From the NCBI GenBank assembly GCA_038087015.1, contig JASBNA010000047.1, positions 248,001 to 312,000 on the forward strand: a stretch of 64,000 bases of DNA. Reading direction: 5' to 3'. Of this stretch, positions 41,640 through 45,267 are shown one piece after another. Below the pieces are notes generated by a model. That model did not search any database and was not told the DNA's origin. It saw only the letters and a list, made by a program, of their open reading frames with translations. The translations under genes and the position numbers were made by a program. The stretch is from Cerrena zonata. Lineage: Eukaryota; Basidiomycota; Agaricomycetes; Polyporales; Cerrenaceae. Numbering within the stretch: position 1 is the stretch's first letter; every line of letters starts with the position of its first letter.

Positions 41640-42149
41640 TGGGCTGCTGATATTGGTTAGGCTCCTTGAAGGGTAAATCTATTTAGTTGCAAGATCTGTT
41701 TTTCTTTTTTTTTTTTTTTTTTTGAAAAGCTTCTGTTTGTTCCACTCGGGGTGTGCACCCACCACCATAACGCGTAATAAGAATATCAACACTTTTCAAA
41801 AGGCTACACCTACTACTTCTCTTCTTCATTGACCCGTTCATTACGTGAAACGTTAATCAGTACTAGATTATGCTTTACAGTATGTTTTTATTGAGGACTA
41901 TCCGTAATTGTCATATTTGTTGATTGTTTGAAACGGTCATGATATGATATCCGATTTACTTTAAATACACGAACTAGACTTTCGAACAAGTTGCAAACTT
42001 GGTACGTTTTTGAAAAGTTTATTGAAAGGATCTTATCCTCGTGATTACAACTCTATTGAATAGTTGGCTCTTAGTGATTGAGGAGCATACCAAAGTTATT
42101 CTGGTTCAGAGAGCTTTTTTTTATAAAAGCACTCAAAACTTAACCTGTT
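41640..42149. other. Promoter side of the TER1 gap
   Basis: This part holds the 5' flank of the acidic-protein gene (T run near 41703-41723) and probably the promoter of the RNA gene to the right. TATAAAAG at 42122-42129 is a candidate TATA element. I see no protein gene here. Confidence 0.45.
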
Positions 42150-42475
42150 CCTTGAGTTCCAAAGTTTTCTTTTACGTTATAATATCCAAACTTTAGCCAG
42201 TAGAGCTACGAGCAAAAACCTCCGTACATCTAGTATTTAGTTAGGGCAAAAAATTGGCTAAGCTAATAAGAGAATCAAGTAAAAGGGTAGTTGTTCTGGA
42301 ATTGCAAAAGTTTATCTTGATTGAGGGGTTGAATAAGTGCTGAATGCATTTAGTCAATAGTGTCGCGGCCATATAATTCAAGGATGGGTATTTCTCTAAG
42401 ATCGATAATTGATCTTAGGGTTGTCAAGGTTTTACAATCGGAGAAATGTTCAAATGGATAAATTCTCAAGAAATG

Positions 42476-42492
42476 CCGGTACCACATCCCGG
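42476..42492 (+). other. Candidate telomerase template
   Basis: The sequence CCGGTACCACATCCCGG begins and ends with CCGG. Read as a template with a 4-nt alignment overlap, it specifies a 13-base repeat, GGGATGTGGTACC on the G strand. This shares GGGATGT with the 16-base repeat I recall for Debaryomyces hansenii. It lies about 150 bases 5' of the pseudoknot, the correct order. Confidence 0.4.
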
Positions 42493-42638
42493 ATAGGATT
42501 ATTCAATGGTTCAGTATTGGAAACAGTAGCGGACCAGAGGGCAAAAGAGCTTTAGGCTTAGTCGACCCCTTTTTATAGTCAAGAGAAGACTGATGATTTC
42601 GGTGATGCAGCTAGTCCATTGATTCGATATTATGAAAG

Positions 42639-42704
42639 ATTGTCTATTATTTTCATTTTCAGCGGTTTTTCTTTTCAAAAGACAATAAAATAAACTATGA
42701 AAAG
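42639..42704 (+). other. Candidate telomerase pseudoknot
   Basis: Stem 1 pairs ATTGTC (42639-42644) with GACAAT (42681-42686). Stem 2 pairs CTTTTC (42671-42676) with GAAAAG (42699-42704). Five U residues (42666-42670) directly precede stem 2, and the connecting loop (42687-42698) is A-rich. This geometry suits the U-A-U triple helix known from telomerase RNAs. Confidence 0.5.
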
Positions 42705-43144
42705 AATGGGGATCAAGCCCATGTTAAAAGCGTGCATACTGGAGTTTGGAGTCTTTGGAAATCTTTTATTGGATCACCCACACACCGAGAGAATAACTTT
42801 ATATGGGAGACTACTGGGGGCTAATCAAAGATAGAATTGTTAGTAATGGGGTGCTTAAGATGGGGACAACCCGTCACAAGAATTCAATATTGAATAACGG
42901 TCTAAATGGTGAATTCAGGCTGTCCCTGAGGATAGATCAGTGTATGCTACTTTGCATATGCGATGAGTTTAAAATTTAGATCTCAGTGTTGAAAGATTGT
43001 GATCTTTCAAGTGTGTATTGGTAAAACCCGGATTTATAGTTTATGAAGTTTCTAAGAATTGATGAATGAGGTTTTCCGATGATACGGAAAGTGCCAATGG
43101 CATGATGTGAAGATAGTTTCGTGAATGACGGGTCTTTCGTTTTT

Positions 43145-43245
43145 GTATGTATGGTTTAAAAAAAAGAATAGGATAAAACAATACTAACGATAAATACGCA
43201 TTAATTCATCTATATACACCTATACGATGTAATACACAAATGTAG
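43145..43245 (+). promoter_or_regulatory. Splice-like 3'-end processing signal of candidate TER1
   Basis: A perfect 5' splice site GTATGT (43145-43150), preceded by an Sm-like GTTTTTG, is followed by a perfect branch motif TACTAAC (43182-43188). The first downstream AG is at 43244-43245, 57 bases from the branch adenosine. Normal introns in this window have an AG within about 10-20 bases. Confidence 0.55.
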
Positions 43246-43310
43246 TATTAAACAAATATCTATTAAAAAATACAATTGTATATAGAATTAAATGGCTAGA
43301 AGGACGTTTT

Positions 43311-44051
43311 TTACATGATAATACATTTGGCACAACCAGATTTTTCTTGAACTTCAGGAGTTTTGGTTGATTGTTCGGTTCTTTTGTTAGCAGTTTCAGC
43401 TTGCTCCTTTTTTGGTTCTTCCTTTGTTGGCTCTTCAGCTGGTTTAACCGATAACTTAGATGCAGTTTTAGCAAAAGTTTCACCTTGAACTTTAGCAATT
43501 CTTTTTTCTAAATCGCTTGGTTGTCTTGAACCGTCAGCACCGGCAAAAGTACCAGCCCCGTAAGGAGAACCCCCATGGACTTCTTCCATGTTAGCCATAT
43601 CTTCAAAAGCAGCGTAACCAGTTGGAACATAAATCATACCATGGTGAACCAAGAAACTCAACATGTTTCTAATGGTGACCTCTTGACCACCACCTAAAGT
43701 CCCGGTGGAAACGAAAAACCCGGCTGGCTTACCTTGTAAAGCACCTTGAGCCCATAAACCACCAGTGGCATCAAAAAATGCACTGAATTGTGCTGGAGCA
43801 TTACCATAACGAGTTGGACATCCAAAAAGGAAAGCGTCATATTTAGTCAAGCTTTCTGAATCGGCAATTGGAATCTCAGAATCCTTTGGTGGGGCATTGA
43901 TCATTTGAAGAACATTATCCGAAAGGGTTTCTTGCACTTGGAAAATGTCTACAGTGTCAGCCAATTTGGATTCAATCACCCCTTGTTGGATTGATTTGGC
44001 CAAGGTGTTAATATGGCCATAAGTCGAGTAAGTTATAATTGCAACCTTCAT
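43311..44051 (-). CDS. YCP4: YCP4-type flavodoxin-like protein with CAAX end
   Basis: This is a WrbA/flavodoxin-family FMN protein, a probable two-electron quinone reductase. The ATG at 44051 opens MKVAIITYSTYGHINTLAKS, the FMN phosphate loop. [32 protein letters not shown] and [20 protein letters not shown] are the other signature blocks. A Lys/Glu/Thr-rich linker from about residue 200 ends in CAKCIIM. CIIM is a CAAX farnesylation signal and C three residues before it could be palmitoylated, so a plasma-membrane location is expected, as for Ycp4. It is divergent from a soluble paralogue 610 bases away. Protein ends 92 bases right of the TER1 processing signal. Confidence 0.95.
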   Translation of the reverse strand: MKVAIITYSTYGHINTLAKSIQQGVIESKLADTVDIFQVQETLSDNVLQMINAPPKDSEIPIADSESLTKYDAFLFGCPTRYGNAPAQFSAFFDATGGLWAQGALQGKPAGFFVSTGTLGGGQEVTIRNMLSFLVHHGMIYVPTGYAAFEDMANMEEVHGGSPYGAGTFAGADGSRQPSDLEKRIAKVQGETFAKTASKLSVKPAEEPTKEEPKKEQAETANKRTEQSTKTPEVQEKSGCAKCIIM

Positions 44052-44661: not shown

Positions 44662-45267
44662 ATGGCTCCAAAAGTTGCAATTATTATCTACTCCATGTAC
44701 CACCACATCGCCACCTTAGCTGAAGCTGAGAAAAAAGGTGTTGAAGCTGCCGGTGGTCAAGCTGACATTTTCCAAGTTCCAGAAACTTTGAGTGACGATG
44801 TCTTGAAAGCTTTACACGCTCCAGCCAAACCAGACTACCCAATTGCTACCAATGACACTTTGGTCAACTACGATGCTTACTTACTCGGTATTCCAACCCG
44901 TTACGGTAACTACCCAGCCCAATTCAAAGCTTTCTGGGATGCCACTGGTGGTTTATGGGCCCAAGGTGCTTTACAAGGTAAAGTTGCCGGTGTTTTCATT
45001 TCCACCGGTACCTTAGGTGGTGGTCAAGAAACCACTGCCATCAACTCTTTATCCTGTCTTGTTCACCACGGTATCACCTATGTTCCATTGGGTTACAAGA
45101 ATGTTTTCGCCCAATTTGCTAACATTGAAGAAGTCAGAGGTGGTTCTGCTTGGGGTGCTGGTACTTTTGCCGGTGCTGACGGTTCCAGACAACCATCTAA
45201 AACCGAATTGGATGTTGCCGAAGTCCAAGGTAAAACCTTCTTCGAAACTGCCTCCAAATTATTTTAA
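44662..45267 (+). CDS. PST3: PST-type flavodoxin-like NAD(P)H quinone reductase
   Basis: This is a 201-residue WrbA-family FMN protein, expected to reduce quinones and protect membranes from lipid peroxidation. Family blocks are [53 protein letters not shown] and [20 protein letters not shown]. It lacks the CAAX tail of its divergent neighbour. Codon use is strongly biased, signalling high expression. In S. cerevisiae the counterpart is Pst2; the PST3 label follows its pairing with YCP4 in C. albicans as I recall, so the paralogue number is uncertain. Start: the ATG after a CACA-rich leader. Confidence 0.9.

Follow-up and report, generated by a model that had tools for sequence, protein, structure and literature searches.

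A gap between two protein genes

The window analysed here, a stretch of 64 kb, belongs to contig C47; the assembly as a whole has 171 contigs and totals 55.5 Mb. Within the window lies a gap (41640-43310) bounded by the start of a gene for an acidic protein and by the end of a flavodoxin-like gene whose best solved relative is Protoplast secreted protein 2 (Table 1); the name YCP4 for the latter is taken from an earlier note on this DNA. That note had described a 1.6-kb interval free of open reading frames, and using translation table 12 we confirmed that the longest ATG-started frame in the gap encodes 58 amino acids, with none of at least 60. It had also listed a template-like element, a pseudoknot, hairpins and a 3' processing signal in this order on the plus strand. 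Elements of these types are present in that order, and as no coordinates had been given for the template-like element, the one meant may differ from the template described below.

Table 1. Features of the gap and the genes that flank it (positions in the window)
Feature	Position	Strand	Remarks
Gene for an acidic protein of 552 aa	39981-41639	-	No Pfam match; divergent from the proposed telomerase RNA gene
Candidate template boundary helix	42051-42058 / 42198-42205	+	8 bp; partition function p about 0.55
TATAAAA, possible promoter element	42122-42128	+	Sole + strand TATAWA match in 41640-42300; putative function
Template	42212-42253	+	42 nt; exact match to the terminal arrays on C24, C56 and C74
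Long branched arm	42309-42591	+	In the template-pseudoknot interval; base helices p 0.58-0.93
Hairpin	42396-42418	+	Among the hairpins of the gap
Putative H-type pseudoknot	42639-42706	+	Best-scoring in 42254-43144
Pseudoknot stem 1	42639-42645 / 42680-42686	+	7 bp
Pseudoknot U-rich loop	42646-42668	+	UUUUC could form 5 consecutive triples with AAAAG of stem 2
Pseudoknot stem 2	42669-42677 / 42698-42706	+	9 bp, U/A-rich; p 0.94
Pseudoknot A-rich loop	42687-42697	+	
Very stable branched domain	42873-43003	+	A shared stem bears two hairpins (42920-42935, 42940-42961); helices p 0.83-1.0
GUUUUUG, Sm-like site	43139-43145	+	Shares one nucleotide with the 5' splice site
Intron-like 3' processing signal	43145-43245	+	GTATGT 43145-43150; TACTAAC 43182-43188; first AG 43244-43245
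YCP4/PST2-type flavodoxin-like gene	43311-44051	-	Converges on the proposed telomerase RNA gene

The tRNA scan found no tRNA gene, and the Rfam telomerase families gave no match at the gathering threshold in the window, nor in the gap up to an E value of 10; two snoRNA-like matches below the gathering threshold were judged to be due to chance. If the TATAAAA element is used, the RNA may start just tens of nucleotides before the template, and a start further upstream is equally possible. The candidate template boundary helix, which stops 6 nt short of the template, requires a transcript that starts upstream of 42051. Two complementary 12-nt stretches, ACTTTTCAAAAG and TTTTTGAAAAGT (41791-41802 and 42007-42018, 204 nt apart), are located in what is presumed to be the promoter or the 5' portion of the proposed telomerase RNA gene. 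Next to the gap, the YCP4 gene and a second flavodoxin-like gene (44662-45267) form an adjacent, divergent pair.

The template, the telomere arrays and the host

Used as a query against the assembly, the gap returned itself and 53 short matches (32-42 nt, 97-100% identity), all of them on C24, C56 and C74, where tandem 34-nt arrays were found, at three contig ends in total. Most of these matches were exact over 38-42 nt; the others were 97-98% identical or, at the array edges, shorter. The C-strand unit of the arrays is CCGTACATCTAGTATTTAGTTAGGGCAAAAACCT, and the G-strand unit, permuted, is AGGTTTTTGCCCTAACTAAATACTAGATGTACGG. The matching element in the gap consists of one 34-nt unit (42212-42245) followed by a 3' alignment part, GCAAAAAA (42246-42253), which repeats the GCAAAAA of the 5' end (42212-42218). 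It is longer than one unit and shorter than two (34 + 8 nt), with GCAAAAA at both ends. A telomerase RNA must carry the telomere C-strand sequence, and the plus strand of the window corresponds to this strand, the orientation being right for left and right contig ends alike.

A pattern search of the 55.5 Mb with up to three mismatches detected 53 sites, 52 in the terminal arrays and one in the gap, the latter being the sole non-terminal copy found (such site counts are lower bounds); the same search with the pattern written backwards detected none. The next best 42-mer within the window, compared ungapped on both strands, differs from the template at 18 positions, so the exact match over 42 nt is not incidental. 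As evidence against chance this template match is decisive, while the splice-type pair, the fold and the pseudoknot differ in strength. The earlier note had proposed the gap as a candidate TER1 gene, a reading now supported by an exact, correctly oriented match to the assembly's own telomere arrays. Among the outcomes that it named as counting against this were telomere repeats matching nothing in the gap and a TER1 located elsewhere; the arrays match exactly, and the pattern search, with its lower-bound counts, found no other non-terminal repeat locus.

At least two fungi contributed to the assembly, which contains two telomere types, namely the 34-nt arrays and TTAGGG arrays, the latter at the ends of C11 and C18 and at the starts of C20, C35, C111 and C136 (eight contigs had matches). 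On C56, a 161-bp segment (586-746) that is 98% identical to the YCP4 gene of the window (43954-43794) directly abuts the telomere array, as if a telomere had been added to a broken piece of YCP4. Assignment of the 34-nt arrays to the second fungus was rejected on the grounds of this 98% identical fragment and of the location of the TTAGGG arrays on other contigs. Two TERT loci were also detected: C61 has an uninterrupted, full-length frame of 885 amino acids, and C6 has two matches side by side in a frame of just 188 amino acids, so that the C6 gene is interrupted, presumably by introns. An EST1 domain was matched within an open frame of 1082 amino acids on C15, and a second match to this domain in the assembly is on C29. 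The local G+C content is 0.33-0.37 in the window, at the loci on C24, C56, C74 and C61, and at the EST1 locus of C15, and 0.41-0.49 at eight loci on C1, C2 (two), C3, C6, C16, C20 and C29, but G+C alone cannot sort every piece, because the ends of C11 and C18 are AT-rich (0.27-0.28).

The C61 TERT gene has a CTG codon for residue 650, which belongs to the QGF-L-S motif and corresponds to Ser in the best solved TERT chain (6zdp); the other seven CTG codons of this gene are at variable positions and give little information. In the septin gene of the window, the two CTG codons align to Ala and, at a poorly aligned end, to Ser. This modest evidence suggests that the yeast host probably reads CTG as Ser, and the Ser reading at TERT residue 650 lends modest support to the CUG-clade affiliation implied in the earlier note. 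Public contigs encode a protein that is 97% identical to the yeast TERT (P0003) and another that is 88% identical to the acidic neighbour (P0002); the existence of both means that sequence from this species or from close relatives of it is available elsewhere. A weak 5.8S-like match (59 bits) was seen in an AT-rich part of C76 (58000-59900), which by eye is unlike an ordinary yeast 5.8S.

Yeasts do have interstitial telomere pieces, and the copy in the gap might be such a remnant: break repair would have inserted 1.2 units there, and the genuine telomerase RNA would be encoded at another locus or be absent from the assembly. The YCP4 fragment beside the telomere of C56, which is DNA common to a telomeric end and to the neighbourhood of the gap, is in keeping with that origin. 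However, the piece is made of one unit and a repeated end; A6 is found at its 3' end, whereas A5 is found in most units, a difference that can explain the variant lengths of 35 and 36 nt described below; no second non-terminal copy was found in the 55.5 Mb, though an intact TERT demands a template; and the piece is located 5' of a structured plus-strand region and a splice-type 3' end. We therefore regard a remnant as very improbable, and the gap as very probably the telomerase RNA gene (TER1), on the plus strand, of a yeast that probably belongs to the CUG-Ser clade.

The arrays contain 50 units that are bounded by two CCGTACATCTAGTATTTAGTTA motifs. Their lengths are 34 nt (41 units, of which 38 have the main form and three a base change), 35 nt (eight of the 50, with six As) and 36 nt (one of the 50, with seven As). 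In the copying model that we propose, TERT would copy the template from nucleotide 42245 to nucleotide 42212, making one G-strand unit of 34 nt, and the new 3' end, ...TTTTTGC, would shift back and re-pair with GCAAAAAA at the template 3' end for the next round. When copying reaches the template border or stops one nucleotide short, the model yields a unit of 34 nt; when it ends within the T run, two nucleotides before the border, the product would re-pair in more than one register on the A6 tract, with 4-5 pairs, and units of 34, 35 or 36 nt would result. Several registers are expected because the A run is six long in the 3' copy and five long in the 5' copy. The A5/A6 asymmetry of the template ends can thus account for the three lengths, although the register model was built after the lengths were seen and therefore explains rather than predicts them.

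3' end signals and predicted RNA structure

Statements cited here and below from PMC3603654, PMC4299874, PMC6115765, PMC6746865, PMC8211666 and PMC10100673 refer to excerpts of those papers.

The 5' splice site and the branch site near the end of the gap are both perfect, and together they are the only GTATGT/TACTAAC pair on the plus strand of the 64 kb (10-199 nt between motif starts); the minus strand has two such pairs, with 5 and 18 nt from branch to AG. The assembly contains 301 sites with the pattern GTATGT-N24-54-TACTAAC, some of which must be chance occurrences because the backwards control gives 92. For comparison we used 20 of the 301 sites, namely 17 listed on C13, taken as yeast on their G+C content of 0.32-0.40, and three listed on C14 (0.45-0.50), probably from the other fungus. 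In 15 of the 17 C13 sites the splice leaves an open frame of at least 40 codons, and the remaining two fail in this respect. The distance from the 5' splice site to the branch A is 42 nt in the gap versus 36-52 nt at the C13 sites. The distance from the branch A to the first AG is 58 nt in the gap versus 3-17 nt in all 17 listed C13 sites (11, 24 and 14 nt in the three from C14), more than three times the longest of the 17. The U2 RNA encoded on C63 carries the standard GTGTAGTA; the sole ground for assigning this gene to the yeast is its difference from the other four U2 genes, which are mutually similar.

Since ordinary introns also carry GTATGT/TACTAAC pairs, the gap might encode a non-coding RNA of some other kind, or hold an untranslated region with an ordinary intron, the telomere match being incidental. 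We find this scarcely credible, given the 42-nt exact match to the arrays, its distance of 18 mismatches from the next best 42-mer, the exceptional branch-to-AG distance and the absence of any ATG-started frame of at least 60 amino acids from the gap.

The precursor of the telomerase RNA would most likely receive its 3' end by the first splicing step at 43145, and the perfect branch site with a very distant AG would favour release of the 5' exon as the mature RNA over ligation, as in Schizosaccharomyces pombe. On these sequence signals, the mature 3' end is predicted at or just before 43144. In S. pombe, the spliceosome cleaves TER1 without ligating it, the Sm site and the 5' splice site have one nucleotide in common, and a strong branch site together with a long branch-to-AG distance leads to release after the first step (PMC4299874). 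Because other fission yeasts manage first-step spliceosomal cleavage of TER1 without the long branch-to-AG gap and the other traits just named (PMC4299874), the geometry seen here is suggestive rather than diagnostic. The Sm-like site, with its U-tract at 43140-43144, reads GUUUUUG followed by U, and deviates from the general consensus AU5-6GR (PMC3603654) at the first base, which is G instead of A, and at the last.

The same U-tract would also suit a TER1 whose 3' end is made by termination and Sm trimming, the mode of S. cerevisiae, or by full splicing and then trimming; spliced TER1 forms occur in S. cryophilus and S. octosporus, and splicing followed by trimming has been considered for them (PMC4299874). 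On the other hand, the authors of that study finally found first-step release in both species, and the perfect splice signals right behind the U-tract, with the 58-nt gap, fit the requirements that they describe for S. pombe (PMC4299874). Moreover, loss of the spliceosomal mode is reported, in the excerpt of PMC6115765, for Saccharomycetaceae and not for the Candida group. We consider trimming in either form unlikely, while still giving it some weight, and prefer release by the first splicing step.

The predicted fold of 42145-43144 has a z score of -3.9, and none of 20 shuffles was as good. Among the 250-nt windows of the plus strand, the lowest z scores were -5.0 (42840-43089), -3.7 (42240-42489), -2.7 (42340-42589) and -2.1 (42740-42989). 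For comparison, 112 control windows, from both strands of other stretches that were judged intergenic from the list of open reading frames, had a mean of -0.11 (SD 1.15) and a minimum of -3.57, with seven below -2. The minus strand of the gap also folds well (z down to -3.1). Folding was unremarkable in the windows of 41640-42289, and z was near 0 in those of 42440-42889, which hold the pseudoknot.

The putative pseudoknot has the textbook form and lies 3' of the template; 9 of 120 dinucleotide shuffles hold one of equal score somewhere, so that by itself it is not significant. Its stem 1 cannot show in the partition function, since pseudoknots are outside the model used. The long branched arm stands where S. 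cerevisiae has its Est1-binding arm and may be the counterpart of that arm, and the very stable branched domain could be a three-way junction near the 3' end. The pseudoknot and the 3' domain provide weaker evidence.

Comparison with known telomerase RNAs and telomeres

The template, very probably that of a genuine telomerase RNA gene, makes the locus remarkable among telomerase RNAs for template length. Known telomere motifs are said to be 5-30 nt long in the excerpt of PMC10100673, and in that of PMC8211666 a length of 28/29 nt is called the record within Saccharomycetaceae; the 34-nt unit exceeds both. A longer or equal unit may already be in print. We lean slightly towards the view that both the unit and the template are the longest known for any telomerase, with 34 nt copied per round, and that the A5/A6 mismatch acts as a built-in register slip that sets the mixed 34/35/36-nt telomere. 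The candidate RNA comes with its own matched telomere and a TERT frame, which makes it directly testable: the 42-nt template probes how far a single round of telomerase can stretch, its A-tract yields a simple prediction on the origin of repeat-length variants, and the 3' signal offers a clean case for whether a long branch-to-AG gap halts the spliceosome after step one. In 2018, the Saccharomycotina branches outside Saccharomycetaceae were said to remain without an annotated telomerase RNA (PMC6115765, excerpt); telomerase RNAs have been described from Candida and, in 2019, from the Yarrowia clade (PMC6746865).

The locus shares with the TER1 genes of the Candida group an intergenic position, a template of more than one repeat, a long unit, and, at the 3' end, a 5' splice site and a branch site (PMC6746865; PMC6115765), but the unit differs in sequence and in length (34 nt versus 23 nt in C. 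albicans and C. tropicalis; PMC10433822), and the Sm-like site is GUUUUUG instead of GAU3-4G, the Candida form (PMC3603654). With TER1 of S. pombe it shares the one-nucleotide overlap of U-tract and 5' splice site, the strong branch site and the long distance from branch to 3' splice site (PMC4299874), whereas the telomere repeat and the template of S. pombe are unrelated to those of the gap. The telomerase RNAs of Tetrapisispora likewise have very long units, of two lengths attributed to an element that occurs repeatedly in the template region; however, these are units of 25-28/29 nt, in Saccharomycetaceae, and the element consists of dimeric ATC sub-repeats rather than of an A5/A6 tract (PMC8211666). 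The telomere of Metschnikowia aff. pulcherrima also has a long repeat, of 27 nt as printed, but it differs in sequence and length (PMC10100673). Finally, the G-strand unit contains GATGTACGG, which is close to GGTGTACGG in the K. lactis repeat and to TGTACGGATG in the C. albicans repeat, as these are printed in PMC10433822.
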